A DNA stretch of 46,949 nt. Origin: Clostridia bacterium. Lineage in GTDB: Bacteria > Bacillota > Clostridia > Christensenellales > Aristaeellaceae. How positions within the stretch are numbered: the first letter of the stretch is position 1; every line of letters begins with the position of its first letter. Location: positions 1 to 46,949 of the forward strand of contig JAFXVJ010000057.1 in assembly GCA_017524615.1 (NCBI GenBank). The letters run 5' to 3'. This document shows positions 1,782 through 46,949 of this stretch, one piece after another. Both the position numbers and the translations under genes were made by a program. Below the pieces are notes generated by a model, which saw only the letters and a program-made list of their open reading frames with translations, did no database searches and was not told where the DNA came from.

Positions 1782-1810
1782 TTGAAAACGCAGGGGAATT
1801 GTGGTATACT
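1782..1810 (+). promoter_or_regulatory. Promoter upstream of xpaC
   Basis: TTGAAA (1782-1787), 17 bases, TATACT (1805-1810). A second, weaker candidate with the same spacing lies just downstream: CTGGAC at 1877-1882 and TATACT at 1900-1905. Either could drive the XpaC-TelA-TPM run. Confidence 0.65.
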
Positions 1811-1934
1811 GCATGAGTGGAAAAACGCCGTTTTGCTGTTTTGAAGCAAACGGATAGCCGGTTTGGGCGAAAATGTCTGGACCGGCGCCTGCGATGCGGT
1901 ATACTGAACGCGCATTGCAATGAAAGGGGGACAA

Positions 1935-2612
1935 ATGATGCAGCAAAACAAAAAGAAAAAAATCAGTCCCTACGCCGCGTCCTTTCTGGCCATGGGCGTG
2001 GTGGTGGTGCTGTATATGCTGATTTTCGGTTTGACCCATCTGTCGGATTATCTCATCGCCGCCGGCGTGATGATCCTGGTGGGGCGGATCGCCTATATCA
2101 TGGCCCAGGGGCTGGACGTGAGCAAAACCGCGCCGGTGCAGCAGGTGATCCCCAAAACGGGCGACGCGGCCGTGGACAGCCTGGTGGAAAAGGGACAGGA
2201 AATGCTTTCCAAAATCCGTCAGGAAAACGATCTGATCCCCGACGCTGAACTGACCGGCCAGATGGATCAGTTGGAGGATGTGGCCAACCGCATCTTCCAC
2301 ACCGTGGCGGAGCAGCCGGGCAAAGCCCCGCAAATCCGCCGCTTCATGGATTATTACCTGCCCACCACCCTGAAAATGCTGGCCGGATACCGGAAAATGG
2401 AGGAGCGGCAGGTGGCCGGCGAAAGCGCCCAGGCCACCCGTGCCCAGATCCGGGACGCCATGAGCGTGGTGCTCAAGGCGTTTGACAAGCAATTGTCCGC
2501 CCTGTATCAGGATGATATGCTGGATCTGTCCACCGATATCGACGTGATGGAGGCCATGCTGAAGCAGGATGGCCTGGTGGACAGCGGTATCAAGGACCAG
2601 GACAGGGCCTGA
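1935..2612 (+). CDS. xpaC: XpaC-like membrane protein
   Basis: 225 residues. Basic N-terminus (QQNKKKKI), then two close hydrophobic segments at about residues 12-32 and 40-55, then a soluble helical C-terminal region. This is the layout of the XpaC family (annotated in databases as 5-bromo-4-chloroindolyl phosphate hydrolysis proteins), which is nearly always next to telA, as here. The molecular role is not established; the family is linked to membrane stress and toxic-anion resistance modules. Start at 1935 (or the adjacent ATG at 1938) because the Shine-Dalgarno AAAGGGGG at 1923-1930 sits just upstream; an in-frame ATG at 1920 overlaps that site and is rejected. TelA follows after 58 bases. 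Confidence 0.82.
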   Translation: MMQQNKKKKISPYAASFLAMGVVVVLYMLIFGLTHLSDYLIAAGVMILVGRIAYIMAQGLDVSKTAPVQQVIPKTGDAAVDSLVEKGQEMLSKIRQENDLIPDAELTGQMDQLEDVANRIFHTVAEQPGKAPQIRRFMDYYLPTTLKMLAGYRKMEERQVAGESAQATRAQIRDAMSVVLKAFDKQLSALYQDDMLDLSTDIDVMEAMLKQDGLVDSGIKDQDRA

Positions 2613-2670
2613 CGGAAGAACCCATGGATGTTTGTTCATAGAGAATGCGTATTGAAAGGAGATCATCCCC

Positions 2671-3870
2671 ATGTCTGAAAGCAATGCCGCCCAGCAAGCC
2701 GCGGAAAACCAGGTGCATTCCGCTCCCATCCTCACCCTGCATTCCTCCGAAGCGGAGGATCGCCAGACATTAGAAAAAGCGGTGGAAATGCTCAACGAAC
2801 TGAAGGTGCCCGCCGCTCCCGACGCCAAGGAGGCCGTGGAGGCGCTGGATTCCTCCCTGACCGACGAGGAAAAGGTGCAGGTGGCCGCCTTCGCCAAGAC
2901 CATTGACCTGACCAACCCCGACCACGTGATGCTCTACGGCGCGGACGCCCAAAAGAAAATTTCTTCCTTCGCCGATACCGTACTGGCGGGCGTGCGCACG
3001 GATGAAACCGGCGACGTGGGCGATATGCTGGCCAGCCTGATCACGGAGCTCAAGGGCTTCAACGCCGCCGGGGAAAGGCCCAAGGGCATCCGGGGCCTGT
3101 TCTTCCGGGCCAAGAAGCAAATCGCCACCATCCAGGCCAAGTATGAGGATGTATCCGCCAACGTGGAGAAAATCGCCGGCAACCTGGAGGATCATCAGGT
3201 GCAGCTGCTCAAGGATGTGGCGATGTTCAACCGCCTGTATGATATGAACCTTTCCTATTTCCATGAATTGACCATGTACATCGTGGCCGGCGATCAGCGG
3301 CTGAAGGAAGTCCGGGAGACCGATCTGAAGGAACTGCAGGAAATCGCGGCCAAGAGCGGCGACGCCATGGACGCCCAGAAGGCCAACGACCTGGCCGCCC
3401 ATTGCGACCGTTTTGAAAAGAAGCTGTACGACCTGAAGCTCACCCGTCAGATTTCCATGCAGATGGCGCCCCAGATCCGTCTGCTGCAGAACAACAATTC
3501 CCTGCTGGTGGAGCGCATCCAATCCACGCTGGTGAACACCCTGCCCCTGTGGAAGAACCAGATGGTGCTGGCGCTGGGCCTGCATCACAGCCAGCAGGCC
3601 ATGAAGGCCCAGCAGGCGGTGACCAATATGACCAACGATCTGCTCAAGAAGAACGCCGAAACCCTGAAGATCGGCACCATCGAAACCGCCAAGGAATCCG
3701 AGCGCGGCATCATCGACCTGGAAACCCTGGTGTCCACCAACCAGAGCCTCATCGAAACCATCAACGAAGTATCCCGCATTCAGCAGGAAGGCCGCCAGAA
3801 GCGCGCCGAGGCCGAAAAGACCCTGGCCAACATGGAACGGGAGCTGAAAGAAAAGCTGCTGACCATGTAA
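2671..3870 (+). CDS. telA: TelA/KlaA toxic anion resistance family protein
   Basis: 399 residues, a cytoplasmic, almost all-helical protein with long amphipathic helices, matching the TelA family (PF05816) over its whole length. Typical family features seen are the central region RGLFFRAKKQIATIQAKYED, the LxxHQVQLLKDV stretch and the conserved QIRLLQNNNSLLVERIQS block followed by LPLWKNQMVLAL. It was named for tellurite resistance but usually accompanies XpaC in Firmicutes, where it is thought to act at the membrane under envelope stress. Shine-Dalgarno AAAGGAG at 2655-2661. It is the middle gene of the xpaC-telA-TPM run. Confidence 0.9.
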   Translation: MSESNAAQQAAENQVHSAPILTLHSSEAEDRQTLEKAVEMLNELKVPAAPDAKEAVEALDSSLTDEEKVQVAAFAKTIDLTNPDHVMLYGADAQKKISSFADTVLAGVRTDETGDVGDMLASLITELKGFNAAGERPKGIRGLFFRAKKQIATIQAKYEDVSANVEKIAGNLEDHQVQLLKDVAMFNRLYDMNLSYFHELTMYIVAGDQRLKEVRETDLKELQEIAAKSGDAMDAQKANDLAAHCDRFEKKLYDLKLTRQISMQMAPQIRLLQNNNSLLVERIQSTLVNTLPLWKNQMVLALGLHHSQQAMKAQQAVTNMTNDLLKKNAETLKIGTIETAKESERGIIDLETLVSTNQSLIETINEVSRIQQEGRQKRAEAEKTLANMERELKEKLLTM

Positions 3871-3957
3871 CCGCGGGCGCGGAGAAAAATCCGCCGGGGC
3901 GGCCCGCCCATCGGGTCCGCCCGGCCGCTTGCCTTCCGATTGGATCGGAAAGGCGCT

Positions 3958-3995
3958 GGGGGAACCCCTCCTGCCTGGTCAGGGTGGGTTCCCCC
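3958..3995 (+). terminator. Inverted repeat, possible attenuator
   Basis: A perfect 10-bp inverted repeat, GGGGGAACCC (3958-3967) and GGGTTCCCCC (3986-3995), lies between telA and the LemA/TPM gene. Only a weak T run (GCTATTTT) follows, so partial termination or an mRNA stabilising hairpin are both possible. Confidence 0.45.
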
Positions 3996-4023
3996 GCTAT
4001 TTTCCAAGTACAAGGAGGAAGCC

Positions 4024-5352
4024 ATGAAACTGCGTACAGGAACAGCGTTCGTGCTCATGATCTGCCTGATTGTGTTCAGCGTAGGCTTCGGCGCCTATCG
4101 GGGCTGGAGCCGGGAACGGGCGGAGGTGGAAAAGGCCTATGACGGCCTGAATGAATTGGTGAGCAGCTCCAATTCCCGCTTGGAGGATATGCTCTCCCGC
4201 CGCGTCGAGGCGGCCAACAGCCTGCTCACCGTGGCCCGCCGGCACCTGCCCGACACGGACGAGGCCATTCGCGCCCTGACAGAGGATCGGGACACCCTGG
4301 CCAATCAATCCTCCCTGGCGGAAAAAGCGGAGGCCAACCGCAGGTTCGCCCAGCACGCCGAGGCGCTGTTGGCCCTGCTGGCGCAGCAGCCCTCCGTGCA
4401 GCAGAATGCCCGGGATCTGGCCTACGTGGCCCAGCCCGGCTACCTGCGCACCGTGCTGCAAAACAGCGAGGCGCAGGCCAGTGAGGATCAGTTCACCCAG
4501 GCCGTTCAGTCCTTCAGCGACGCCGTGGCCCAGTACAATCTGGCGGCAGACGATTACAACCGCGAATTGAACGGCTCCTTCAGCGGCTGGGTGGCCCGGC
4601 TGCTGGGCGTGAAGGCCATCGACCGCTTTTCCGACGCCACGCAGATCAGCTTCTCCGTATCCCCCGCGCTGCGCATTCCCCCGCGTCCCCAGGGCGCCGT
4701 GGCGGACATGACGCTGATGAGCGTGCTGGATGAGCAAACCGTAACGGATCTGGAAACCCTGTCCCAGCGGCTGGAGCAGGCCACGGGCGGCCGGCTGTAC
4801 GTGCTGGCGGTGGATTTCCTCAACAAAGCCAGTCCCGAGGATTATGCCCGGGCGACGTTTGAGCAGTGGGGCCTGAAAAGCCGCGACGCGCTGCTGGTCA
4901 TGGCGGTGGGCGATCACAGCCGCGTGATCACCGGCGGCAGCGACGCCCTGAAGGTGCTGGATCAGATCACCCTGGATCGGCTCTTCGGCCGGTATTTTGA
5001 TCCCCTGTATCAGAATCTGGAATACAGCCGCGCCGCGGCCACCCTGGCCCAGGCGGCGGCGCAGGAGCTGGCCAAACCGAAAACGCTGGATGTGTCCGGC
5101 CTCTTTGGTTCCTTCGCCGAAGCGGATCTGACCGAAAAAGAGCCGGAAAAGGAGCCTGGCCAGTCCGCGCAGAAGCCCGCCGAGGAGGGCGGCGCCAGCC
5201 TGACCCACATCCTCAATACCATGCTGAACAATGTGCAGCAGCTGAACGAAAGCAAGGCTTCCGCCCGTCGCTTCAATTGGCGTGGCGTGCTGATCTGGGG
5301 CCTGGTGATCTACTTCATTTTCTTCCGCAAGAAGAGCCGGAAGCGGAGGTAA
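4024..5352 (+). CDS. LemA-like/TPM domain membrane protein
   Basis: 442 residues. An N-terminal signal anchor (5-27) is followed by a LemA-like helical region (about 28-205: EVEKAYDGLNELV, MLSRRVEAANSLL, then a QYNLAADDYNREL helix as in LemA), a TPM domain (about 235-350: LETLSQRLEQATGGRLYVLAV, then DALLVMAVGDHSRVITGG and FDPLYQNLEYSRAA), a low-complexity Glu/Pro/Lys linker, and a second membrane segment (418-436) with a basic RKKSRKRR tail. Both domains would be outside the membrane between the two anchors. LemA and TPM proteins are usually separate neighbours; here they are one chain. It follows XpaC and TelA, suggesting a membrane maintenance role. Start at 4024 fits AAGGAGG at 4012-4018. 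It ends next to the phosphodiesterase gene. Confidence 0.8.
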   Translation: MKLRTGTAFVLMICLIVFSVGFGAYRGWSRERAEVEKAYDGLNELVSSSNSRLEDMLSRRVEAANSLLTVARRHLPDTDEAIRALTEDRDTLANQSSLAEKAEANRRFAQHAEALLALLAQQPSVQQNARDLAYVAQPGYLRTVLQNSEAQASEDQFTQAVQSFSDAVAQYNLAADDYNRELNGSFSGWVARLLGVKAIDRFSDATQISFSVSPALRIPPRPQGAVADMTLMSVLDEQTVTDLETLSQRLEQATGGRLYVLAVDFLNKASPEDYARATFEQWGLKSRDALLVMAVGDHSRVITGGSDALKVLDQITLDRLFGRYFDPLYQNLEYSRAAATLAQAAAQELAKPKTLDVSGLFGSFAEADLTEKEPEKEPGQSAQKPAEEGGASLTHILNTMLNNVQQLNESKASARRFNWRGVLIWGLVIYFIFFRKKSRKRR

Positions 5353-5356
5353 CGCT

Positions 5357-6544
5357 GTGCGGCTGTGCATGATTTCCCTGGACGCCGTGGCCCAGCCGGA
5401 CGCGCCGCGGCTGCTGGCGCTGCCGGCGCTGGGCGCTTTGCGGGATCGGGGGGTATTCTGCGATCAGGTGAAAACGGTGTATCCCACCCTCACCTATCCC
5501 ATCCATGCTTCCCTCCTCACCGGCTGCTATCCCGCCGTTCACGGCATCGGCCACAACCAGCCCTTCCAGCCCGATACGGATCCCGCCATGCGCACATGGT
5601 ACTGGTCCGCGAGGGATATCCGGGTGAAAACGCTGCATCAGGCCGCCCGGGAAAAGGGCATGGACGTGGCCTCCATCCTGTGGCCGGCATCGGGCAAAAA
5701 CCGGGCCGTGCGCCGGAATTTTCCCGAAGTGCTGCCCCTGCCCGGGGAAAACGCGGTGTTCAAAATGCTGCGCTACGCCTCTCCCCTGTGGATCCTGCGG
5801 ATGGAGGCGCTGTATGGCAAACAGCGGAAATCCGTCCATCAGCCTGATCTGGACGATTATGCCGCCCTGCTGTGCGAAAAGCTCTACGCCTCGCGCCGCC
5901 CGCCCCACGTGCTCACCGTGCACCTGGTGGACTGTGACGCTATGCGGCACCAATACGGCACGGACAGCCCCCAGGCGCATGCCGCCATGGAACGGCTGGA
6001 CGCCCGGGTGGGCCGGATCGTGGAAGCGGTGCGCCGGGCGGGACTGATGGAGGAAACCCTGTTCTGCGTGGTCAGCGATCACGGCCAGCAGGACGCGCCC
6101 CGCGGCGTGCCGCTGGATCGGCTGCTGAGGGAAGCCTGCGGGGCCCGGGCCCAATCCCTGGGCATGGGCGCCTATATTTTCGGAGAGGATCTCACCGCCG
6201 CCTGGCGTGCCCTGACGCAAAACAAGCAGGAGTGGGGCATCAGCCGCATCCTGGGGGCGGAGGAAATCCGCGCCTTGCGGGGGCCGGATCATGTGCGCCT
6301 GGCGGTGGACGCTATGCCGGGCTGCTGCTTTATCGACAAGCCGGGAGAAACCCGGGGGGAGCATGGCTTTTCCCTGGACTGCCCGCAGGCCCGCACCCTC
6401 CTGTGGCTGGCGGGGCCCGGGATCCGGCAGAATGAAACGCTGGCGGAAGCCGATCTGGTGGATATCGCGCCCACCCTGGCCCGGGCCTTGGGGCTCTCGC
6501 TTCCCCAGGCGGAAGGCCAAGCGATCATGCAGGCGTTTGAATGA
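5357..6544 (+). CDS. Type I phosphodiesterase/nucleotide pyrophosphatase family protein
   Basis: 395 residues in the alkaline-phosphatase superfamily, phosphodiesterase branch (PF01663). The N-terminus has the metal-binding Asp in MISLDAV, and the nucleophile Thr lies in YPTLTYPIHASLLTG, the usual TxP-x-HxS-x-TG block. Later metal ligands are seen in HLVDCDAMRH (Asp and His), VVSDHGQQ (Asp-His) and EHGFSLD (His). No signal peptide, so it is probably cytoplasmic; the substrate (a phosphodiester or pyrophosphate) cannot be read from the sequence. It starts with GTG at 5357, six bases after GGAGGT, and only four bases after the stop of the LemA/TPM gene, so the two are cotranscribed. An MBL-fold hydrolase follows within 20 bases. 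Confidence 0.88.
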   Translation: MRLCMISLDAVAQPDAPRLLALPALGALRDRGVFCDQVKTVYPTLTYPIHASLLTGCYPAVHGIGHNQPFQPDTDPAMRTWYWSARDIRVKTLHQAAREKGMDVASILWPASGKNRAVRRNFPEVLPLPGENAVFKMLRYASPLWILRMEALYGKQRKSVHQPDLDDYAALLCEKLYASRRPPHVLTVHLVDCDAMRHQYGTDSPQAHAAMERLDARVGRIVEAVRRAGLMEETLFCVVSDHGQQDAPRGVPLDRLLREACGARAQSLGMGAYIFGEDLTAAWRALTQNKQEWGISRILGAEEIRALRGPDHVRLAVDAMPGCCFIDKPGETRGEHGFSLDCPQARTLLWLAGPGIRQNETLAEADLVDIAPTLARALGLSLPQAEGQAIMQAFE

Positions 6545-36534: not shown

Positions 36535-38103
36535 ATGGATTTTCAGAATACCGCCCTGGGCCTGGAATTTGGTTCCACCCGGATCAAGGCCGTGCTCATC
36601 GACCGGGCCAATAAGCCCATCGCTCAGGGCAGCCACGAATGGGAGAATCAGCTGGAAAACGGCATCTGGACCTATTCCATGGACGCCATCATCGGCGGGC
36701 TGCAGCATTGCTTTCAGGATCTGAAGCGGGATGTGAAGGAAAAATTCGGCGAAACGCTGACCACCGCAGGCGCCATGGGCATTTCGGGCATGATGCACGG
36801 CTATCTGCCCCTCGACGCGGCGGGGCAGCCCCTGACCGCCTTCCGCACCTGGCGCAACACCATGACCGGCCCCGCGGCGGCAGAACTGACAGAGCTGTTC
36901 GGCTTCAATATCCCTCAGCGCTGGAGCATCGCGCACCTGTATCAGGCCATTCTCAACGGGGAGGAGCATCTGCCCCGGGTGGCCCGGCTGACCACCCTGG
37001 CGGGCTACATCCATGAACGGCTGACGGGCCGGGCCGTGCTGGGCATCGGCGAGGCCAGCGGCGTCATGCCCGTGGACAGCGCGAAGCTGGACTATGATGA
37101 AGGCATGATCGCCAAATTCGACGCGCGGATCGCCGACCGCGGCTTTGGCTGGAAGCTGCGGGACATCCTGCCCCTGGCCATGCCCGCCGGGGAAAACGCG
37201 GGCTGTCTCACCGCGGAAGGGGCCCTGCTGCTGGATCCCACCGGGGAATTCCAGCCCGGCGTGCCCTTCGCGCCGCCGGAGGGCGACGCCGGCACCGGCA
37301 TGGCCGCCACCAATTCCGTTCGGGCGCGGACGGGCAATGTGTCCGCCGGCACGTCGGATTTCGCCATGATCGTGGTGGATCATCCCCTGAATGTGCATCG
37401 GGAGATCGACATGGTCACCACCCCCGCCGGGCTGCCCGTGGCCATGGTGCACTGCAACAACTGCACCAGCGATATCAACGCCTGGGTGAACCTGTTCGGG
37501 GAATTCGCCGGGCTGATCGGCGCGGAGGTCAGCAAGGGCGATCTGTACGTGAAGCTGTTCAACAAGGCGCTGGAGGGCGATCCCGACTGCGGCGGCCTGA
37601 TGAGCTACAATTACTTCTCCGGCGAGGGCGTCACCGATCTGGACGAGGGCCGGCCCGTGTTTGCCCGGGCGGAGAACGCCAGGATGACGCTGGCCAATTT
37701 CATGCGCACCCATCTGCTCTCCGCCCTGGCCACGCTGAAAATCGGCCTGGATATCCTGACCCAGGAGGAAAACGTGCCCATCGACAAGCTGTACGGCCAC
37801 GGCGGCTACTTCAAAACCCCCGGCGTGGGCCAGCGCATGCTGTCCGCGGCGGTGGCCAGCCCCGTATCCGTGATGGAAACGGCGGGCGAGGGCGGCCCCT
37901 ACGGCATGGCGCTGCTGGCGGGCTATATGCTGTGGAAGCGGGAGGGCCAGTCCCTGGAGGATTACCTGGATCAAACGGTGTTCGCGGACGCGGTCTCCTC
38001 CACCCTGACGGCGGACGTGCGGGACATCGCCGGCTTCGCCGCGTTCCTGGAACGGTATAAAAACTCGCTGCCTGTGGAAAAGGCGGCCATTGCCCATATG
38101 TGA
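36535..38103 (+). CDS. FGGY-family carbohydrate kinase (probable L-ribulokinase)
   Basis: 522 residues. The N-terminal ATPase domain opens with [16 protein letters not shown], the FGGY phosphate-1 motif; [17 protein letters not shown] and FRTWRNTM contact the sugar. The C-terminal domain has [14 protein letters not shown] and [20 protein letters not shown], with [10 protein letters not shown] near the adenosine site. FGGY kinases phosphorylate ketoses or polyols; because araD follows within ten bases, L-ribulose is the best guess (the AraB step). It is shorter than enterobacterial AraB (about 560) and differs from it, as in many Clostridia, so xylulose is an alternative. Start 36535 follows AAGGGAGG. 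Confidence 0.85.
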
Positions 38104-38111
38104 GGTGCGGT

Positions 38112-38807
38112 ATGTTAGAGCAATTAAAAGAACAAGTCTGGAAAGCCAACCTGCTTTTGCCCAAGTATCATCTGGTCACCTTCACCTGGGGCAATGTCAG
38201 CGGCATCGACCGGGAAAAGGGCCTGTTCGTCATCAAGCCCTCCGGCGTGGAATATGACGTCATGACGCCGGACGACATGGTGGTGATGGATCTGGACGGG
38301 AATGTGATCGAGGGCAAGTGGCGTCCCTCCAGCGATACCCCCACCCATCGGGAATTGTACAAGGCGTTTCCCGCTTGCGGCGGCATCGTGCACACCCATT
38401 CCCGCTGGGCCACCACCTTCGCCCAGGCGGGACGGGATATCCCCGCCATGGGCACCACCCAGGGAGACTATTTCTACGGCGCCATTCCCTGCACCCGGCC
38501 CATGACCGAGCAGGAGATCAAAGGCGAGTATGAAAAGGAAACCGGCACCGTCATCATCGAAACCTTCCGCACCCGGGGGATCGATCCGGCCCAGGTGCCC
38601 GGGGTGGCGGTATTCTCCCACGGGCCCTTCGCCTGGGGAAAGGATGCCCTGGAAGCGGTGCACAACGCGGTGGTGATGGAGGAAGTGGCGTTCATGGACT
38701 GGCACGCCATGATCCTCAATCCCAAGCTGGGCCCCATGCAGCAAACCCTGCTGGACAAGCACTACCTGCGCAAGCATGGGAAAAACGCCTATTACGGCCA
38801 GAAGTAA
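38112..38807 (+). CDS. araD: L-ribulose-5-phosphate 4-epimerase
   Basis: 231 residues, the normal length for AraD. WGNVSGID (substrate loop), [41 protein letters not shown], the zinc ligands [26 protein letters not shown], and the third His in [10 protein letters not shown] are all present. It turns L-ribulose 5-phosphate into D-xylulose 5-phosphate, feeding the pentose phosphate pathway. Start ATG 38112 after GAGGTG; it lies eight bases after the kinase stop and is cotranscribed with it. No araA isomerase or arabinose regulator lies in this window. Confidence 0.94.
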
Positions 38808-38814
38808 CAAAAGC

Positions 38815-38858
38815 GGTAAAAAATACGGGCTTTCACAGCATCCTGTGAAAGCCCGTTC
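38815..38858 (-). terminator. Terminator shared by araD and CDF genes
   Basis: Perfect 13-bp stem CGGGCTTTCACAG (38826-38838)/CTGTGAAAGCCCG (38843-38855). On the minus strand it is followed by TATTTTTTACC, a good terminator for the CDF gene; on the plus strand only TTC follows, so it is weaker for araD. Confidence 0.82.
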
Positions 38859-38927
38859 AAACTGTCAACAAACCCCGGGGATGCATCGAAGGGGCCACGT
38901 TCAGAAAGCGATAAACTGGAATTTGTC

Positions 38928-40079
38928 TTATTCTTCCGCGAAATCGGTGTCCATTGCAACCTGAAGTTCATAGTCCGGGAACGATTTCTGTACATCAGCG
39001 ACAACTTCATTGCACACAGCCCTGCGATCCTTTGCGTCAAAGCTGATCACAAGATCGAAGCGCATTGTTTTCTGATCCTTCAATAAGTAGAAGCCATGCA
39101 TCTGCCTGACATGTTCATGGGTAAAGACGATTTCTTCAACCTGCCGTTTTGTCTGGATGATTTCCTCATCCTTCGTATTCACCGAGTAGACGCCAATAGC
39201 CGTCAGGATAACCTGATGCTCGTGGATCACCTTCATAGTAATCTCGCGGAGAAGTTGATCCAACTGATCTGCGGAATATGTATCAGGAACCTCAATATGG
39301 ATGGAGCCATTCCACGTGTCCGGCCCGTAATTATTCAGCACAAGGTCATAGGCTCCCTGTACATCCGGAAAGCTCATGACCGTGTCATGGATCGCCTTGG
39401 CCAACTCAGTATCATTGCGCTCTCCGAGGATTTGGGAAATCGTTTCACGGAGCATTTCAATACCGGATTTGATGATCACGACGGAAATGATCGCGCCGAG
39501 CCACGCCTCAAGGGAGATGTGGAAGATGAGAAAGATTCCCGCAGCGACCAACGTGGAGGCCGAAATGACGGAATCCAGTGTGGCGTCCTCACCGGAATTG
39601 ATCAGGGAATCCGAATTCACCTTGACGCCTACACCTTTGACGTAGCGACCCAACAAAATCTTGACCACTACCGCAACGGCGATGATGATCAGTGAAACCA
39701 CATTATAATCGGATGTTTCCGGATGGATGATCTGCTTTACGGATTCCCCGAAGGATGTTATGCCTGCGTACAGCACAATCACAGAAATGATCATGGCGCT
39801 CAGGTATTCAATCCGCCCATACCCAAACGGATGCTTTTTATCCGGTTCTTTGCCGGCCAGTTTCGTTCCGACAATGGTGATCAATGAACTGCCCGCGTCG
39901 GAGATGTTGTTGACCGCATCCAGCACGATGGCGATGGAGTTGGTCATCAGCCCGATCACAGCTTTGAAGCCAGCGAGGAATACATTTGCTATGATTCCGA
40001 TAATGCTGGTCTTGACGATTGTTTTTTCACGAGAAATCGCATTGTCTCCCGTTCCTCTGGCTTCTGATAATGTAGCCAT
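38928..40079 (-). CDS. Cation diffusion facilitator (CDF) transporter
   Basis: 383 residues. Six hydrophobic segments lie in about 20-215. Metal-site motifs are AIVLDAVNNISDAGSS in helix 2 (Asp-x(6)-Asp) and NSGEDATLDSVIS in helix 5 (Asp-x(3)-Asp). A cytoplasmic dimerisation domain (about 225-300: AKAIHDTVMSFPDVQGAYDL) is followed by a further similar domain to the C-terminus (HVRQMHGFYLLKDQKTMRFDLVISFDAK). The Asp-rich sites suit Mn2+, Fe2+ or Zn2+ export; the metal is not certain. The gene is visibly less GC-rich than its neighbours. GGAGG precedes ATG 40079. Confidence 0.92.
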   Translation of the reverse strand: MATLSEARGTGDNAISREKTIVKTSIIGIIANVFLAGFKAVIGLMTNSIAIVLDAVNNISDAGSSLITIVGTKLAGKEPDKKHPFGYGRIEYLSAMIISVIVLYAGITSFGESVKQIIHPETSDYNVVSLIIIAVAVVVKILLGRYVKGVGVKVNSDSLINSGEDATLDSVISASTLVAAGIFLIFHISLEAWLGAIISVVIIKSGIEMLRETISQILGERNDTELAKAIHDTVMSFPDVQGAYDLVLNNYGPDTWNGSIHIEVPDTYSADQLDQLLREITMKVIHEHQVILTAIGVYSVNTKDEEIIQTKRQVEEIVFTHEHVRQMHGFYLLKDQKTMRFDLVISFDAKDRRAVCNEVVADVQKSFPDYELQVAMDTDFAEE

Positions 40080-40112
40080 ACTTACCTCCACAAATCCCGA
40101 TTTGTCGCTATC

Positions 40113-40141
40113 ATCATATCATGGGGAAGAATAGAAAACAA
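40113..40141 (-). promoter_or_regulatory. Promoter of CDF gene
   Basis: On the minus strand TTGTTT (40136-40141), 17 bases, TATGAT (40113-40118). The -35 box directly abuts the terminator hairpin of the upstream operon at 40142. Confidence 0.65.
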
Positions 40142-40178
40142 GGGCGCAATTATACACCGTACCGGTGAAATTGCGTCC
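40142..40178 (-). terminator. Terminator of VanZ-NUDIX-LDT operon
   Basis: GGGCGCAATT (40142-40151) pairs with AATTGCGTCC (40169-40178), extended inside by CACCG/CGGTG. On the minus strand TTGTTTTC follows; on the plus strand CTTTTGTATTTT follows. Confidence 0.7.
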
Positions 40179-40263
40179 TTTTGTATTTTATCGCTCAATG
40201 AATGAGACCGTGGCCGCAGCCCCTTCGATTATGATCCGCAGGCGCCTCTATCTGCTTTTCATC

Positions 40264-40707
40264 TCACGGCACGATCGAAATCTCCGTCCCCACGGGCGTC
40301 AGGTCATACAGCGCCTGAGCGTCCTGATCGGCCAGCGCCACGCACCCCGCCGTCCAGTCGGAGGCCGTACCCCCGCCGTGCACATAGATTTCACCGCCCA
40401 GGGCAGTGCCCCAGGGCGGTCTTTCCTTGCGTTCTGCCCGCCGGCGGATCACTTCGACGGTTTCGGGCGGCAGGCCGGCCCGCAGGGCGTCGCCTGCGTT
40501 GGGATAGCTGACCCCCAGGGACGGGCCATATTTCCCTTGCTTTTTCAGGCAGATGAAGTATTCGCCCTCCGGCGTCTTCCCGTCCCCCTCCTGTTTTTTC
40601 GCGCCCACCGGGCACTTTCCCAGGGCGATTGGACAGCTCAGGATCACCCGCTCCCCGCCATCCGTCAGCGTCAGCCGCCTTTTTCCTTTTTCGATCAGGA
40701 TCCGCAC
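40264..40707 (-). CDS. L,D-transpeptidase (YkuD) family protein
   Basis: 147 residues, essentially one YkuD domain without signal peptide or anchor. The catalytic motif is IYVHGGGTASDWTAGCVAL (HG-x(n)-G-C with nucleophile Cys; the usual SxGC(I/V)R is WTAGCVA, so the Arg is missing). The N-terminal part KTPEGEYFICLKK is typical. These enzymes make 3-3 peptidoglycan crosslinks or attach proteins; a lone cytoplasmic form without the Arg may have another role. Its start overlaps the NUDIX gene by 13 bases. Confidence 0.87.
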   Translation of the reverse strand: MRILIEKGKRRLTLTDGGERVILSCPIALGKCPVGAKKQEGDGKTPEGEYFICLKKQGKYGPSLGVSYPNAGDALRAGLPPETVEVIRRRAERKERPPWGTALGGEIYVHGGGTASDWTAGCVALADQDAQALYDLTPVGTEISIVP

Positions 40708-41177
40708 GTCTGCGCCTCCCCGCCGTCCAGCCGGTATCCCGCCAGCCGGCCGCCCGCTTCATAGATCAATTTGAGGGAAAAGCAATCCGTCCGCGTCCGC
40801 AGCAGGGGCAGAAAAATGCGGTCCCCCTCCCACAGCGGCAAATGCGCCACCTGCTCCGCCGGCACCCATTGCAGCACCCCCTCCGCGCAGGGCGGCAGCT
40901 GCGTTTCGTCGGTGTGGGCGGTGTACAGGAAGGTCAGTTCGTCTCCCCAGTCAGGCAGGATAAAGGTCAGTATCCCCCGCAGCCGCAGGCCGGTCACCTG
41001 CAGGCCCGTTTCCTCCCGGATCTCCCGCAGCACGCACTCCTCCGGCGATTCTCCGCTTTCCAGATGCCCGCCGATGCCGATCCATTTGCCCGCGTTTTCA
41101 TCCCGGGCTTTTTTCACCCGGTGCAGCATCAGGTACTGTCCTTCCCGCTGGATATAGCACAGTGTGGTCAGTCTCAT
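40695..41177 (-). CDS. NUDIX hydrolase (MutT-like)
   Basis: 160 residues. The Nudix box GGHLESGESPEECVLREIREETGL matches G-x5-E-x7-REUxEExGU completely. N-terminal TTLCYIQREGQYLMLHRVKK and the NAGKWIGIGGH approach are those of 8-oxo-dGTP diphosphatase-type clostridial proteins, so cleaning of oxidised nucleotides is likely but not certain. GAGGGGG precedes ATG 41177. It lies 12 bases after VanZ and overlaps the L,D-transpeptidase gene, so the three form one operon. Confidence 0.92.
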   Translation of the reverse strand: MRLTTLCYIQREGQYLMLHRVKKARDENAGKWIGIGGHLESGESPEECVLREIREETGLQVTGLRLRGILTFILPDWGDELTFLYTAHTDETQLPPCAEGVLQWVPAEQVAHLPLWEGDRIFLPLLRTRTDCFSLKLIYEAGGRLAGYRLDGGEAQTCGS

Positions 41178-41189
41178 CGCGCGTCCCCC

Positions 41190-41672
41190 TCATGTCGTGT
41201 TTTCCGGCGCCCGTTTTCGCCACAGGCGGATGATTCCCGCCATCAGCGCCACCCCTGCCAGCACCCCCAGGCTGTCAATGCCCACGTCGAGGGGCTGGGG
41301 GCCCCGGCCATCCACAAACATTTGATGGATTTCGTCCGATACGGCGTACAGCGTGCCCGCCACCCAGGAAATGATGTTTTTGTGCCGGCAGCGCAGCCAC
41401 TTCAGCAGCAGCCGAAGAAACAGCCCCAGCAGCATGAATTCGCTGAAATGCGCCGCTTTCCGCACCGCCAGCTGGTATTGCTGCCGGATCATCCGACGGG
41501 CTTTGGCTTTCAGGGAATCAAACTCGGGGTGGAACCAATGGATCAGCCTGTCCACCAACACGCCGCTGGTCTGGCTGGAGCTTTCCGCGTCCTGGGCGGA
41601 AAAAATGAATATCATGGCCGCCACCGCCAGCACGGCCAGCGCCGTGATGACGATCCATCGTCTGATCTTCAA
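41190..41672 (-). CDS. VanZ family membrane protein
   Basis: 160 residues with four hydrophobic segments and VanZ signatures: FSAQDAESSSQTSG after the first segment, VRKAAHFSEFMLLG, and YAVSDEIHQMFVDGRGPQPLDVGIDSLGVLAG. VanZ gives low-level teicoplanin resistance in Tn1546, but most members stand alone and their function is not known. The start is TTG at 41672, about nine bases after AGAAAGGG; no ATG is suitably placed. First secure gene of the minus operon. Confidence 0.88.
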   Translation of the reverse strand: MKIRRWIVITALAVLAVAAMIFIFSAQDAESSSQTSGVLVDRLIHWFHPEFDSLKAKARRMIRQQYQLAVRKAAHFSEFMLLGLFLRLLLKWLRCRHKNIISWVAGTLYAVSDEIHQMFVDGRGPQPLDVGIDSLGVLAGVALMAGIIRLWRKRAPENTT

Positions 41673-41958
41673 TGTCCAGGCCCTTTCTGTCCCTCTGTGG
41701 GACATCCCGCATTGCCGCCCGGCGCACCCCGCGCCCGACCCGGTTGTATTCGTCGCCTTCCCTGTTATTTCCTGCATGCGGATGCAGGGACTGGCGATCA
41801 GCTTTTGCGGACGGCAGATGCGCGCCGCCGGTTTTCCATTGATGCAAATTGCCGGGCTTGATGTTCGCCGCCGCAATATCTTTGACGCTGCGGCCCGGAA
41901 GCCCGATAGCGGTTTGTAACAGGGTTTCGGTTTCCGCGAATGTTGTTTTTTTCATCAA
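41518..41958 (-). CDS. Possible small HTH-like protein, perhaps decayed
   Basis: An open frame of 146 codons with a strong AGGAGG-type site in front (41964-41970 on the minus strand). The first 45 residues (KTTFAETETLLQTAIGLPGR, then SVKDIAAANIKPGNLHQWKTG) look like a short DNA-binding helix-turn-helix protein. After about residue 60 the sequence becomes low-complexity Arg/Gly and it runs out of frame over the VanZ start, so the true gene may have ended earlier and lost its stop by frameshift. It stands divergent from the HEPN gene. Confidence 0.4.
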   Translation of the reverse strand: MMKKTTFAETETLLQTAIGLPGRSVKDIAAANIKPGNLHQWKTGGAHLPSAKADRQSLHPHAGNNREGDEYNRVGRGVRRAAMRDVPQRDRKGLDIEDQTMDRHHGAGRAGGGGHDIHFFRPGRGKLQPDQRRVGGQADPLVPPRV

Positions 41959-41984
41959 AAAACCACCTCCCAGATGGAAGGTGG
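41954..41984 (-). promoter_or_regulatory. Hairpin covering a ribosome binding site
   Basis: On the minus strand CCACCT (41979-41984) can pair with AGGTGG (41963-41968), masking the GGAGG of the small HTH-like frame, and is followed directly by TTTTTTG and the ATG. It has the form of a terminator or attenuator that overlaps a ribosome binding site. Confidence 0.4.
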
Positions 41985-42033
41985 CGGGATTGGAAGGGGA
42001 TTCAGGTTTTTTCTTCTGGAAAACAAATGATTA

Positions 42034-42062
42034 TTGACTTTTTCTAAATAATTAGAAATAAT
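42034..42062 (+). promoter_or_regulatory. Promoter of HEPN gene with internal palindrome
   Basis: TTGACT (42034-42039), 17 bases, AATAAT (42057-42062). The spacer holds a perfect palindrome TTTCTAA-ATAA-TTAGAAA (42041-42058) that reaches into the -10 box. A protein bound there would block transcription, so this is a candidate operator. Confidence 0.55.
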
Positions 42063-42100
42063 GAGATAGATACTCTACCATGTAAGTGAGGAACGCGATT

Positions 42101-42679
42101 ATGAACACCGAGAAGAAAGCACTTTTATCTGTTAGCTATCCCTATGAATCAGTTTCAAAGAATCAGTGTTCAACAGAAAAAAACGAATTGGAGTTATACT
42201 TTCTAATACTTGATTGTTTGAGTATACATGGTGCTATTATCGTTTATGATCATATTTGTAATTTGAATAAAGATTCACAATTTATTTTATATTACAATAC
42301 ATTAGAAGAAGCTCTGATATACAGAATCATGATGGGGTTATCGAAACTGTTTGAAAACAGTGGCAAAGCAAGAACGTGTATGAGAGTGATAAATGCCATT
42401 GAACAAAAGCAACAGTTCAAATTGAATAAAATAATAGGAGAAGCAATAAGTAGAATACATATTATAGTGAAACAATTTCAAGAAACATATAATTTGCATG
42501 ATTTAAGAGACTCTTTCTTTGGTCACTTAGATAATGAAATGTCCATTTCCACTCTGCGGTTTCATTTGAAGCTAAATTATTATGATGAATTACAATTATT
42601 ATTGTTTCAGTTAGTTGAAAGATTAGTAGATCTATATAACTTATGTTTTCCCGAATATAAAATAATTCTTTTATCGTAA
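42101..42679 (+). CDS. HEPN-domain protein (AbiU2-type)
   Basis: 192 residues, all-helical, no signal or membrane segment. YRIMMGLSKLFENSGKARTCM is followed about 40 residues later by LHDLRDSFFGHLDNE, in which R136-x5-H142 fits the HEPN R-x(4-6)-H ribonuclease motif; the arrangement (A/S-R/K-L-F/D helix, then L-R-D/N-x-x-x-x-H-x-D) is that of AbiU2 proteins. AbiU2 comes from a lactococcal phage-abortive system, and HEPN domains with this motif are usually metal-independent RNases. The gene is strongly AT-rich, unlike the flanking operons, indicating transfer. It lies 199 bases upstream of the helicase gene. Start 42101 after GTGAGGA; a GTG at 42086 overlaps that site. Family assignment is by eye. 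Confidence 0.62.
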   Translation: MNTEKKALLSVSYPYESVSKNQCSTEKNELELYFLILDCLSIHGAIIVYDHICNLNKDSQFILYYNTLEEALIYRIMMGLSKLFENSGKARTCMRVINAIEQKQQFKLNKIIGEAISRIHIIVKQFQETYNLHDLRDSFFGHLDNEMSISTLRFHLKLNYYDELQLLLFQLVERLVDLYNLCFPEYKIILLS

Positions 42680-42878
42680 AGAGAACGGAACTTCATTTTC
42701 AAGCAAATGGGTAACAACATCACAGGCATCAACAACAAGGTATTCAAGAAAGCGTACTTTATAGAATTGCCCTTCTAAATTTTTACCTAATATAGAAAAA
42801 ACTTGACCATAAAAAATTCAAAGAATATAATAATTAATGACATAATTCCTTCCAAGAACTATTCGGGAGGTTAGATAA
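42680..42878. other. AT-rich gap between HEPN and helicase genes
   Basis: No clear gene. A minus-strand frame of about 47 codons (ending at 42677) reads GQVFSILGKNLEGQFYKVRF followed by EYLVVDACDVVTHL, and a plus-strand frame of 23 codons begins MGNNITGINNKVFKKAYF at 42708. Neither has a convincing start signal. The minus-strand frame looks protein-like and could be the tail of a lost gene. Confidence 0.3.
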
Positions 42879-45653
42879 ATGATTCGAAAACGTAAGCTCC
42901 AAGAAGAAATTAATCAAAGAGACATCTCAATTTCTGCTTTACATGCATCAATAGACAAAAAGGAAAGGGAATTGAGAGATATTATACAAAAACTCAACAA
43001 AGCCATAGGGCAGATAGATTCTTTGATGAATGAAAACAGAACCATAAAAAATAAATATGAGACGCAACAAAATAGAATACAAGATTTACAAAAGCAATTA
43101 ACTTCTGCTGCTATTGCTGCTGCTGATAGTGACAAACAGATTTCATTTTTAAAAAGAACAATATCGGAAAAAGAACAAAGAATAGAACAGGTAGAAAAAC
43201 TTGTTTCTGAATCCAAATCTATCATTTTGGTCAAGAAACAGGAATTAGAATCGGCGACACAACAACTATTTGTATTGCAATCACAAATCATAGCAATACA
43301 AGCCGATAGAGATAGGATTAATGAAGAATTGACCAACGCTAATCAAAAGCTCAAAGAAAGAGAAACAACTCAAAAAACCAGACCTGTTCCAGAAGTAATT
43401 GCATCTAATCTATCATCTGTTTCCTGTAATGAATCTGATGATGAAATACAACATTCCGAATCCCTGCCTGAGATACCTTCGTACCTTCAAAAGCTTAATG
43501 AAGAGCAAATAGATGCAGTAAAAACAACCGAAGGCTATGTTCGTGTAATTGCAGGCGCAGGTTCAGGAAAAACTCGCGCATTAACAAATCGGTATGTATA
43601 TCTTGTGGCTGAATTGGGCGTCAGCCCTGCTAGCATTCTTTGCGTGACTTTTACCAATAAAGCGGCAAATGAAATGAAAAAGCGTATCAGACAGATGATC
43701 GGAGATAATGATTTGTCCCTCATTTGTACATTCCATAGTTTTTGTGTACAAGTGTTGAAGGTCGATGCTCCGCGAATCAACTATCCAAGAAACTTTATGG
43801 TGTTAGATGAGGAAGACACTGAATCAATTCTGAAAAAAGTATACAAAGAAAAAGGATTAACATCAAATGAATACACTTTCAAAGAAGCAGGAAATGAAAT
43901 CAAACGTTTCAAGGGCCTAAACATGGAACTGTATATTGGATTGCTCACTAATCCTGATCCGACACCACTATCAAAAAGATATGAGGAAGCTTCCACACCT
44001 CTTGAAGAGATTATTTGGGGATATATTTATGAACAAAGGAAAAACTTCGGTTTTGATTTTGATGATCTGATACTAACAACTTTCTATATTTTTGAACACT
44101 ATCCTGATATTCTTGAAAAATGGCAAAAGAAACTGGAATACATCATGGTAGATGAATTCCAGGATGTTAGTAAACGTCAGTTTGGACTTTGCTACATGCT
44201 ACAAGAATATCATAAGAATCTATTCGTTGTTGGCGATCCAGACCAAACAATTTATTCTTTCCGTGGTGCAGATATATCTATTATTCTAAATTTTGATAAA
44301 ACGTTCCCTGGAACAAAAACCATAATGATGACAAAAAACTATCGGTCATCTCCAAATATCATTGATGTTTCTAACAATCTGATAGAACATAACGCTTCCC
44401 GAATCAAAAAAGACTTAATCCCAATTAAGACGCAAGATGTTCAAACAATTTATAATCACGCTAAATCATCCGTAGAAGAAGCGGAATGGATTGCAGAAAC
44501 TATTGTCAAGTTAAACAAAGTGGGTGTTGAACTAAATAGTTTTGCTATATTATACCGAGCGCACTATGTATCACGTCCAATAGAAGAATCGTTGATGAAA
44601 AGAAAAATATCTTACACAATTTATAGTGGCATAAGTTTTTATGAGAGAAAAGAAATAAAGGATGTTCTTTCCTATCTTCGCATGTTGATTTATCAAGATG
44701 ATTTGTCTTTTTTGCGCACGGTGAATGAGCCAAGGCGTAACATCGGAGAAACAAGAATCAATAGACTAAAAGAATATGCAAAAGCCGTTGGATGCACATT
44801 ATATCAAGCATTACAGCAGTTATTGGATCAAGGAGACCCCTTGTTTATTCGAGGGAAAGGAGCTGATTATGTATCCTTGATTGAAAAATACAGAAATATT
44901 TACCAGCAATACACATTGACCGATCTGCTTGAAGCAATCATGCGCGAAAGCGGATACGAAGAAATGATGCAGACACAAGGAGAAGATGAACGCCTGGAAA
45001 ACATTGCAGAATTACGGCAATCAATGGTAGATTATGAGGATTCTTCACAAGAAGATTTCGGTCTGGAAGACTATCTATCAAAAATCGCCTTGTTCACCAA
45101 TATCGACAAAGAAGAAAAAGGGAAAACGGTTCGATTAATGACGGTGCATAGCGCAAAAGGCTTGGAATTCCCATACGTATTTGTGTGTGGACTAAGTGAA
45201 GGCATTTTCCCCAGCAGCAAAACAGATACAGTTGAAAAACTGGAAGAAGAGCGAAGGCTTGCTTACGTTGCTTTTACTCGTGCTGAAACAGCGCTATTCT
45301 TGTCTGATGCAGAAGGATATAACTATAATCTGTCCTATCGTTATCCATCCAGATTTATATTCAATATCAATAAAAACCTTTTGATATATACAAAAGAGTT
45401 AGAAGAATCTTTGGTATCAAATGCTGTATCACAGATTCAACAAAACGAGCATAGAATCCAGCAAAAAGAAAACTTACCAACAATTCATGTGGGAACTACA
45501 ATAGTACATCCGTTATTTAAAACAGGAAAAGTAATCAGTATTGATGAAACCAATGGTATATATGAAGTTGAATTTTACAATGGTCAAGTGCGCCATTTAA
45601 CTAAAAATGGATTGAGTAATTGTAGAATAGTAGATATAAGCGAAGAGGAATGA
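42879..45653 (+). CDS. UvrD/PcrA-like SF1 helicase with N-terminal coiled coil
   Basis: 924 residues. About 1-165 is a continuous coiled coil (Lys/Glu/Gln-rich heptads), then a flexible linker to about 195. The helicase follows: Q-motif LNEEQIDAV, Walker A AGAGSGKT (225-232), motif Ia VTFTNKAANEM, motif II VDEFQD (424-429), motif III GDPDQTIYSFRGA (452-464), KNYRSS, VRLMTVHSAKGLEFPYVFV and EERRLAYVAFTRA. The C-terminus (about 870-915: VGTTIVHPLFKTGKVISID...YEVEFYNGQVRHL) is the Tudor-like tail of PcrA that binds RNA polymerase. PcrA has no coiled coil, so this is a separate, accessory protein: a 3'-5' translocase on DNA. AT-rich like the HEPN gene before it. GGGAGGTTAG precedes ATG 42879. Confidence 0.92.
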   Translation: MIRKRKLQEEINQRDISISALHASIDKKERELRDIIQKLNKAIGQIDSLMNENRTIKNKYETQQNRIQDLQKQLTSAAIAAADSDKQISFLKRTISEKEQRIEQVEKLVSESKSIILVKKQELESATQQLFVLQSQIIAIQADRDRINEELTNANQKLKERETTQKTRPVPEVIASNLSSVSCNESDDEIQHSESLPEIPSYLQKLNEEQIDAVKTTEGYVRVIAGAGSGKTRALTNRYVYLVAELGVSPASILCVTFTNKAANEMKKRIRQMIGDNDLSLICTFHSFCVQVLKVDAPRINYPRNFMVLDEEDTESILKKVYKEKGLTSNEYTFKEAGNEIKRFKGLNMELYIGLLTNPDPTPLSKRYEEASTPLEEIIWGYIYEQRKNFGFDFDDLILTTFYIFEHYPDILEKWQKKLEYIMVDEFQDVSKRQFGLCYMLQEYHKNLFVVGDPDQTIYSFRGADISIILNFDKTFPGTKTIMMTKNYRSSPNIIDVSNNLIEHNASRIKKDLIPIKTQDVQTIYNHAKSSVEEAEWIAETIVKLNKVGVELNSFAILYRAHYVSRPIEESLMKRKISYTIYSGISFYERKEIKDVLSYLRMLIYQDDLSFLRTVNEPRRNIGETRINRLKEYAKAVGCTLYQALQQLLDQGDPLFIRGKGADYVSLIEKYRNIYQQYTLTDLLEAIMRESGYEEMMQTQGEDERLENIAELRQSMVDYEDSSQEDFGLEDYLSKIALFTNIDKEEKGKTVRLMTVHSAKGLEFPYVFVCGLSEGIFPSSKTDTVEKLEEERRLAYVAFTRAETALFLSDAEGYNYNLSYRYPSRFIFNINKNLLIYTKELEESLVSNAVSQIQQNEHRIQQKENLPTIHVGTTIVHPLFKTGKVISIDETNGIYEVEFYNGQVRHLTKNGLSNCRIVDISEEE

Positions 45654-45691
45654 AGAAATCCTCTTCCTGGCTTGCAGAAAGAGGGATTTTG

Positions 45692-45850
45692 TTATGTCAT
45701 CAGCTTAATATACTTGTACGCAGTAGGTCTTGACAGCTTACATATCCTCGCCAGCTCCGTCACGCTCATGGTGCCGTTGGTGTAAGCGGGATAATACTTG
45801 ATGAACACAGCGGGAAGGTCTGCCCTGGTGGTGGGCCTTCTTTCACAAGG
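45692..45850 (-). pseudogene. Serine recombinase (resolvase), C-terminal fragment
   Basis: On the minus strand, about 52 codons to a TAA at 45692 read RRPTTRADLPAVFIKYYPAY then MSVTELARICKLSRPTAYKYIKLMT. This matches the C-terminal end of resolvase/invertase-type serine recombinases: a G-R-P-x(n)-LP linker, then the DNA-binding helix-turn-helix (x-VTE-A-R-x-x-x-SRPT-x-YKY-I). The catalytic domain is gone; upstream sequence (45851-46050) is unrelated and has no convincing gene. It is a mobile-element remnant at the right edge of the AT-rich island. Confidence 0.7.
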
Positions 45851-46054
45851 GCCATTTGATTGCGGCTGTCCCCGAAAAAACAGTCCGCTTTGTGAAGCCT
45901 GGATCCATAACCCTCCCCCAGACCCCCCCGGCTGCTGTTCCGCTCATGAGCTTTTCGCCTCGGCTGTCGCTGCCTGATCATGGGCCCGATTCGCTATCGC
46001 AATTTGCGAGCAATTTTCGGTGAACGATTGCCCTGATTTTGTTCATTTTAAGCC

Positions 46055-46083
46055 TTGACAGCGCATAAAACCTGTGGTATAAT
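46055..46083 (+). promoter_or_regulatory. Consensus promoter upstream of tRNA-Val region
   Basis: TTGACA (46055-46060), 17 bases, TATAAT (46078-46083): perfect consensus. The transcript would first cross about 110 bases of GC-rich leader, then the tRNA-like repeat at 46196, then tRNA-Val at 46356. Confidence 0.85.
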
Positions 46084-46195
46084 CAATTTCGCCGTCAGAA
46101 AGCCGGGCCTCCGGCGTGCGGTGCCGCTTGTCCGATGCGGCGGGTGCCTGTGGATGTGACATGGGCCGTAAACCCGAAAATCGGTTCACATATAT

Positions 46196-46220
46196 GGTCG
46201 CATGGCTCAGTTGGTAGAAC
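46196..46220 (+). repeat. Duplicated 5' part of tRNA-Val
   Basis: The 25 bases GGTCGCATGGCTCAGTTGGT plus AGAAC repeat the first 25 bases of tRNA-Val (46356-46380) with one difference (A for G, which breaks a D-stem pair). The following bases do not complete a cloverleaf. It could be a truncated tRNA copy or an attachment-site remnant of an integrated element. CCCACTGGT occurs twice in the 135 bases between the copies (46223 and 46273). Confidence 0.7.
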
Positions 46221-46355
46221 CCACTGGTCAAGTTATCAAACTGCCGGTTCATGAGTATCTCAAGTGACTGGCCCACTGGTAGACAAGACCGACATGCGCA
46301 GGAAGCTGAAATAACCGAACGATTTCAGCGGATAAGGCTAAAAAGTTCGGAATTA

Positions 46356-46431
46356 GGTCGCATGGCTCAGTTGGTAGAGCACATCGTTCACATCGATGGG
46401 GTCACAGGTTCGAGTCCTGTTGCGACCACCA
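46356..46431 (+). tRNA. tRNA-Val(CAC)
   Basis: Complete cloverleaf: acceptor GGTCGCA/TGCGACC, discriminator A and encoded CCA (46429-46431). The anticodon stem CATCG/CGATG encloses TTCACAT, giving anticodon CAC. T-arm ACAGGTTCGAGTCCTGT. It is followed at once by a strong terminator. Confidence 0.96.
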
Positions 46432-46432
46432 T

Positions 46433-46470
46433 AAACCCTTGAAAACACTACGTTTTCGAGGGTTTTTCAT
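46433..46470 (+). terminator. Terminator of tRNA-Val
   Basis: AAACCCTTGAAAAC (46433-46446) pairs with GTTTTCGAGGGTTT (46452-46465) over 14 positions with one wobble, and continues into TTTTTC. Confidence 0.85.
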
Positions 46471-46490
46471 TTTCTCCGGAAGCCGACATG

Positions 46491-46514
46491 TTCATTTTGG
46501 AGAACCAAAATGAA
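46491..46514. repeat. Perfect 10-bp stem-loop
   Basis: TTCATTTTGG (46491-46500) and CCAAAATGAA (46505-46514) around an AGAA loop. It lies in the gene-free right end (46471-46949), which also holds GCCATGCA/TGCATGGC (46766-46790). Confidence 0.6.
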
Positions 46515-46628
46515 TGGAATCCATCACGCCGTTCACATCGAAAAAACAGATGATTTCCGAACGATACATTCTTCTCCCCTGCCCGGAGGGGTGTTCAAAA
46601 TCCAGGGTGTTCACCGTCCTGCATAACA

Positions 46629-46685
46629 AAGCGCCTGCCTCTTGAGATACACGCGTCGGTGTGGCTCAAGTGACAGGCACTTTGT
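46629..46685. repeat. Long imperfect inverted repeat
   Basis: Two arms of about 25 bases, beginning AAAGCGCCTGCCTCTTGAGA and, on the other strand, AAAGTGCCTGTCACTTGAGC, match at about four of five positions with a short centre. A related element, GTGTGGCTTAAG, recurs at about 46713. This could be the end of a mobile element or a structured RNA; no gene is visible around it. Confidence 0.45.
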
Positions 46686-46949
46686 GTCGAGGTGAACGAT
46701 GTGATAGAAATCGGTGTGGCTTAAGAGCCGGAAATCGAGTATAACAATGGGATGGCATCGAAAAAGCCATGCACTTTCTTTATGCATGGCCGTCAATGAC
46801 AGACTGATGTTTGTACGATTATCTTCCGATATTCCTTGCCAATGAGCATCTCAACAAATTGGATTTATCGACGTATCAAAACGCCTTTCATATACTGCGT
46901 TTCATTATGCGTTTGATATACTTCCATCTTCTCCGCTTCTGTACAGCCA

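Follow-up and report, generated by a model that had tools for sequence, protein, structure and literature searches.

The window analysed here is a stretch of 46,949 nucleotides, contig JAFXVJ010000057.1 of the Clostridia bacterium assembly GCA_017524615.1 (Christensenellales; Aristaeellaceae). Near its right end, between positions 42034 and 45653, two adjacent plus-strand genes encode a HEPN protein of the AbiU2 family and a PcrA/UvrD-like helicase that carries an N-terminal coiled coil. The original prediction, made from the sequence of the window, regarded these genes as a unit and proposed that they act together against phages. Our analysis favors, with moderate confidence, the explanation that both lie in a small AT-rich island of laterally acquired cargo and that their products probably work independently. 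Counted for this explanation are the varied neighbors of other PF18734 genes, the helicase relatives that lack a HEPN gene, the lack of other genomes with both families in the order and phylum samples, the second PcrA-like gene that the genome carries elsewhere, the AT-rich composition, a recombinase tail at the right edge, flanks with homologues in the genus and, weakly, the 199-bp gap and a promoter-like match before each gene. The family assignment, the coil-bearing helicase and the AT-rich island of the original prediction are retained, whereas the two-gene system is not supported.

Two proteins encoded in an AT-rich island

Both genes were found at the position originally indicated, in a stretch over which the guanine-plus-cytosine (GC) content drops from about 0.60 to 0.29–0.37. 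The GC content is 0.285 for the HEPN gene and 0.354 for the helicase gene, and the values at third codon positions, 0.269 and 0.292, respectively, contrast with those of six nearby genes (0.60–0.85). The AT-rich island that had been described in a GC-rich chromosome is borne out by this difference.

The first gene (42101..42679, plus strand) encodes a protein of 192 residues that belongs to the HEPN_AbiU2 family (PF18734). Its open reading frame (ORF) begins at a GTG codon at 42086, and the ATG at 42101 is the likelier start because it is preceded by the sequence GAGGAA, as read by eye. The protein matches PF18734 with 32.4 bits (E-value 8.1e-8), which surpasses the Pfam gathering cut-off of 26.8. 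The R-x5-H motif that had been claimed corresponds to RDSFFGH, residues 141–147 of the protein (P0001), and conforms to the R-x4-6-H pattern of HEPN proteins. It aligns with RDNLYAH, RDNYFAH, RDKMIAH, RDNVFAH and RNRLLAH in five of the six PF18734 relatives compared, yielding the common signature R-[DN]-x3-[AG]-H; the sixth relative, from genome G651, lacks an R-x5-H motif. A single-sequence structure model of the protein is helical, with a mean predicted local distance difference test score of only 42.7.

Close relatives of the HEPN protein were sought in several collections. Neither NCBIfam nor PADLOC profiles matched it at E ≤ 1, and tblastn searches of phages and plasmids returned no relative. 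Scans for exact 8-residue patterns, which detect close relatives only, found nothing except the protein itself in the IMG/VR viral contigs and in 84,980 genomes. Sequence searches of 297 genomes of the order and 398 of the phylum likewise retrieved only the protein itself. Ten other phylum matches, with E-values of 0.02 or worse, were dismissed as noise.

According to passages of PMC3710099, AbiU2 is a HEPN family from abortive infection systems of lactococci; its members are predicted ribonucleases (RNases), and its genes share operons with a Sel1-repeat gene or with restriction-modification (R-M) genes. The protein of the window shares with AbiU2 a score above the family cut-off and the R-[DN]-x3-[AG]-H signature. 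It differs in length, with 192 residues compared to ORFs of 219–251 residues in the six relatives, and in its surroundings, where a UvrD-like helicase gene is adjacent and no R-M or Sel1 gene was recognized nearby by eye. It is a divergent addition to the family. RNase activity is predicted from family membership, and this solitary AbiU2-type protein would probably cut RNA in response to a trigger and thereby shut down the infected or stressed cell.

The second gene (42879..45653, plus strand), whose ATG is preceded by GGGAGG as read by eye, encodes a PcrA/UvrD-like helicase of superfamily 1A (SF1A) with 924 residues. The helicase core encompasses residues 203–836 (43485..45386, plus strand) and displays the UvrD-helicase (E 1.5e-75) and UvrD_C (E 2.5e-66) domains in a Pfam scan. 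With phmmer, residues 203–851 align to PcrA (1pjr) with an E-value of 1.2e-134. The SF1A motifs GAGSGKT, DEFQD, GDPDQTIYSFRG, NYRSS, TVHSAKGLEF and AFTRA, which we take to have their customary roles, are intact, in keeping with a UvrD/Rep-type SF1A enzyme. The profile searches that the original prediction had proposed, with PF18734 and the UvrD families, therefore match both proteins. The core is followed by a PcrA-like tail (45387..45653, plus strand), a feature also named beforehand, whose general form was judged by eye to be common to the relatives L139, L069, L073 and L132.

The enzyme is related to PcrA through its core, motifs and tail, yet its score against the NCBIfam PcrA equivalog TIGR01073 is 598.1 bits, below the cut-off of 911.2. 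A second, separate PcrA-like gene is present in the same genome (G000, C25) and is 39% identical to the helicase of the island, which is therefore an extra enzyme. The identity of the latter to the members of a second helicase group, set by identity alone rather than by a tree, is 44–54%. An extra helicase of this group, which is scattered through the order and phylum, might act with 3'-5' polarity beside the other PcrA-like enzyme of the genome in DNA repair or in the clearing of blocked forks, of transcription complexes or of foreign DNA.

The core is preceded by an N-terminal coiled coil (residues 1–170; 42879..43388, plus strand). Residues 1–168 contain no proline and a single glycine, and their hydrophobic residues recur with a period of 3.5. 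At the level of sequence the coiled coil is real, as had been predicted, because none of 2000 shuffles reached this heptad signal. A coil of approximately 170 residues was found in none of the relatives compared; this architecture, not seen among them, is the most unusual part of the locus. Probably a new N-terminal fusion, the coil would dimerize the helicase or dock it to a partner. PcrA-like helicases with extensions for partner docking would illustrate how a housekeeping motor can become a sensor.

Conservation of the pairing and of the coil

Genes of the PF18734 family were found in four other genomes of the 297 from the order (E ≤ 1e-3), three of them above the cut-off, and in two other genomes of the 398 from the phylum (E ≤ 1e-4), both above it. 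The protein below the cut-off, from G029, did not reach an E-value of 1e-5 on a rescan. All six loci were retrieved as stretches of 9–13 kb. In G178 and G029, the HEPN_AbiU2 gene lies between hsdM and an hsdS-like gene (named by eye in G029), and in G042 it adjoins a DNA methylase gene. AIPR-domain proteins are linked to abortive infection, and a gene for one of them follows the PF18734 gene of G651. The gene of G008 adjoins a NikA-like mobilization gene, and PAPS-reductase and DUF4007 genes lie at a greater distance; the genes scanned beside that of G671 encode a trypsin-like protease and a protein with no match. The neighbors of the six loci therefore comprise Type I R-M genes in two cases, and a methylase, an AIPR gene, a NikA-like gene and no recognized gene in one case each. 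With three of the six loci next to R-M genes and one next to an AIPR gene, it is reasonable to predict that the HEPN protein has a role in defence.

The two Type I R-M loci belong to two genera of the order, with the HEPN_AbiU2 genes at 5917–6651 of L095 and 2530–3285 of L097. In L094, a HEPN_AbiU2 gene adjoins a NikA-like gene, and the PAPS-reductase and DUF4007 genes beyond them are on the same strand (1420–6524).

The pairing put forward by the original prediction was not found at other loci in the collections searched. None of the six other HEPN_AbiU2 loci contains a UvrD-type gene within 2.5–6 kb on each side (blastp to the helicase, E < 1e-10). Nor does any of 162 helicase loci contain a HEPN-like frame, as judged from a profile built from seven HEPN proteins (E ≤ 0.01) and run on all stop-to-stop frames of at least 60 residues, and blastp with the HEPN protein of the window also found none. 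These loci were drawn from the order (29 and 20, overlapping), the phylum (9), named records (7) and viral collections (18 and 79, partly overlapping), with flanks that measured 1.5 kb in some loci, reached 6 kb in others and were shorter at contig ends. As a check that the search ran, the profile recovered all six HEPN loci and the gene of the window, which are its own members. Recurrent adjacency, which is expected of a conserved two-gene system, is thus absent from these loci.

The distribution of the two families was compared as well. In the order sample, the genome of the window is the only one that the helicase and PF18734 lists have in common. Because only about 0.4 shared genomes are expected by chance (31 × 4 / 296), this result represents an absence of support for the pair and not avoidance. 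The phylum lists share no other genome either; these draws differ in size (259 for the helicase and 398 for PF18734), and the two PF18734 genomes may lie outside the helicase draw. A Type I R-M system with an accessory HEPN gene does not account for the locus, as no hsdM, hsdS or hsdR gene was recognized by eye in 38000–46949. Among the literature matches listed, none describes this HEPN–helicase pair.

Relatives of the helicase are present in 31 other genomes of the order sample (E ≤ 1e-130), with 33 matches in all, and 32 of these are stop-to-stop frames of at most 787 residues, including two short ones of 622 and 496 residues. The remaining match, of 981 residues in G204, does not qualify as a coil carrier, since its core starts at residue 46. 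This protein and one of the two matches in G126 are only 39–40% identical to the helicase and probably represent ordinary PcrA enzymes. Nine other genomes of the 259 in the phylum draw contain a helicase at E ≤ 1e-150, in frames of 723–781 residues. The 894-residue ORF of L134 is cut by the end of the record, and its N-terminus lies outside it.

Among viral helicases, 80 ORFs from 79 loci include only three with an in-frame leader longer than 60 residues (63, 85 and 131 residues), none of which is coil-like by eye, although a coil could go unseen in ORFs truncated at the end of a contig. A C-terminal stretch of the helicase had no match in viral contigs. The relative in the IMG/VR locus L150 (3974–6709; 28% GC) has 911 residues and is 54% identical over the core; its long extension is C-terminal rather than N-terminal.

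Genomic setting of the island

By sequence comparison, the island is enclosed by host-like DNA, because both flanks have homologues in the same genus. On the left, a VanZ-like gene (41190..41810, minus strand; PF04892, E 9.5e-21) belongs to the host chromosome, and the region of a NUDIX-like gene is up to 78% identical to genomes of the genus. The genes of this side that were named by eye include a sugar kinase, an aldolase, a cation efflux protein, an L,D-transpeptidase and the NUDIX protein. On the right, the host chromosome comprises a tRNA-Val gene (cac; 46356..46431, plus strand), and the surrounding region (46193–46769) is 95% identical to the genus mate G695.

The right edge of the island contains the decayed C-terminal, helix-turn-helix (HTH) end of a serine recombinase (45692..45841, minus strand). 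Over 48 residues, this remnant shares 58% identity with the end of a longer, resolvase-like ORF in the genus mate G704, and it is 47% identical to a recombinase family protein of Natranaerobius. In Pfam it matches several HTH families and one DUF, each below its cut-off. Its position at the edge hints at a mobile past of the island.

The boundaries drawn from these comparisons are putative. A search for the empty site in genus mates yielded no fetched locus with the left and right homologues on the same stretch, and no direct or inverted words of 9–14 bases are shared between 41850–42110 and 45640–46300. The island lies 1.3 kb from the contig end in an assembly that is 81.6% complete and consists of 59 contigs.

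The 5' end of the tRNA-Val gene is partly duplicated: a copy (46197–46218) stands 160 bases upstream of the corresponding word (46357–46378) of the intact gene. The same kind of repeat occurs in G695, with three copies of the word spaced by 160 and 325 bases, and in G706, with copies 168 bases apart.

Probable independent cargo, rival explanations and known systems

The description of the two genes as a unit holds insofar as they are adjacent, AT-rich and co-directional; that they form one transcription unit is doubtful, given the gap of 199 bp and weak promoter-like sites. One of these sites, TTGACT-17-AATAAT (42034..42062, plus strand), precedes the HEPN gene and agrees with the consensus at 10 of 12 positions. 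The other, TTGACC-17-TATAAT (42803..42831, plus strand), agrees at 11 of 12, lies 47 bases before the helicase ATG and is the best promoter-like match in 41900–45900. The gap also contains a short open stretch in the frame of the HEPN gene after its stop codon (42680..42775, also given to 42778, plus strand); it has no Pfam or plasmid match and is perhaps the tail of a lost gene.

Several observations weigh against independent cargo. Among the long ORFs of the island, only the HEPN and helicase genes are not overlapped by a longer one; this, with their common unusual composition and direction, is compatible with a single transferred module. Separate promoters before each gene are weak candidates, because the 16 promoter-like matches of the region do not exceed the number in shuffled sequences (14.8, standard deviation 3.0). 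The recombinase tail may belong to the host side, because its GC content (about 0.48–0.57 around 45700–45850) is higher than that of both genes. The coil, sought alone by exact-pattern scans of genome contigs and viral contigs, was found nowhere else. Finally, the conservation comparison rests on distant relatives of the HEPN protein, and a rare conserved pair would be missed because no close relative of this protein or of the coil was found.

A two-gene anti-phage system is rather unlikely. It would consist of a helicase that surveys DNA ends, forks or transcription and a coil that holds the HEPN RNase inactive, until motion of the helicase on invading DNA frees the RNase and translation is stopped, in a manner resembling Hachiman. 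The AT-rich island consists almost entirely of these two adjacent, co-directional genes, which would be consistent with such a system, as would the defence loci in which four of the six HEPN relatives reside. The coil, present in no relative with a visible N-terminus, is what would be expected of a partner-docking part gained for the pair. Helicases of known systems provide parallels: passages of PMC12278908 report that the N-terminal helical bundle of HamB binds HamA in Hachiman, and passages of PMC10952713 report that GajB, a UvrD-like helicase, promotes the activity of GajA in Gabija. Against this stand the single instance of the pair, with neither family accompanied by the other at the six HEPN_AbiU2 and 162 helicase loci, the co-occurrence of the families, within the order sample, in the genome of the window alone, the lack of a PADLOC match for the HEPN protein, and, weakly, the promoter-like site between the genes. 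The claim of a system comes down to one unreplicated adjacency and failed, within the collections searched, the test of conservation that the original prediction had itself set.

The helicase could instead be the DNA-processing gene of a plasmid, phage or integrative element, with the HEPN gene as stranded addiction or exclusion cargo, an explanation that we regard as improbable. The recombinase tail at the edge of the island points in this direction, together with the NikA-like mobilization gene beside one other PF18734 gene and the helicase relatives on a Selenomonas plasmid, on a scaffold of a faecal phage and on an IMG/VR contig (47.7%, 47.6% and 54% identity, respectively). The neighbors of helicase relatives, however, are mostly ordinary-looking cellular genes in the 20 stretches inspected by eye among the matches listed, and the neighbors at the IMG/VR locus L150 also look ordinary by eye; several relatives lie on contigs of 0.1–3 Mb. 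The ORFs of at least 80 residues in 38000–46949 include none that was recognized by eye as a replication, relaxase or phage structural gene. An assembly artefact that joined DNA of another organism to the contig is a highly improbable source of the AT-rich stretch: the proximity of the contig end in an incomplete draft would permit it, but host-like DNA lies on both sides of the island. Independent cargo consequently remains the preferred explanation. If the two proteins do not bind each other, the locus cautions against taking the adjacency of genes in an acquired island as evidence of a system; if they do, it would represent a new helicase–RNase system.

Comparison with known systems reveals partial similarities. 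Passages of PMC10952713 describe the Helicase+DUF2290 system as a UvrD-type helicase with a small partner, an arrangement also seen here, and the HEPN protein had no DUF2290 match in the Pfam scan. Gabija (GajA–GajB) likewise has a UvrD-like helicase as one of two components. In PADLOC, the helicase core matches GajB profiles next after RTasHel, and both matches look general to UvrD helicases. The upstream gene encodes a HEPN_AbiU2 protein in place of a GajA-type OLD/TOPRIM partner, and no gene for such a partner was recognized by eye among the same ORFs of 38000–46949. The likeness to Hachiman is a possible analogy only: in passages of PMC12278908, the effector nuclease is bound by the helical N-terminus of the sensor helicase, and in the window a putative effector gene likewise adjoins the gene of a helicase whose N-terminus is helical. 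Hachiman pairs a Ski2/Brr2-type helicase, HamB, with HamA, a DUF1837 DNase, whereas here an SF1A helicase with UvrD domains accompanies a HEPN protein that had no DUF1837 match in the Pfam scan. The locus might yet be a rare defence system, which we consider unlikely, in which the PcrA-like helicase would sense invading DNA and a newly fused coil would hold and release the AbiU2-type RNase. Such a system would be the SF1A equivalent of Hachiman and would target RNA in place of DNA.

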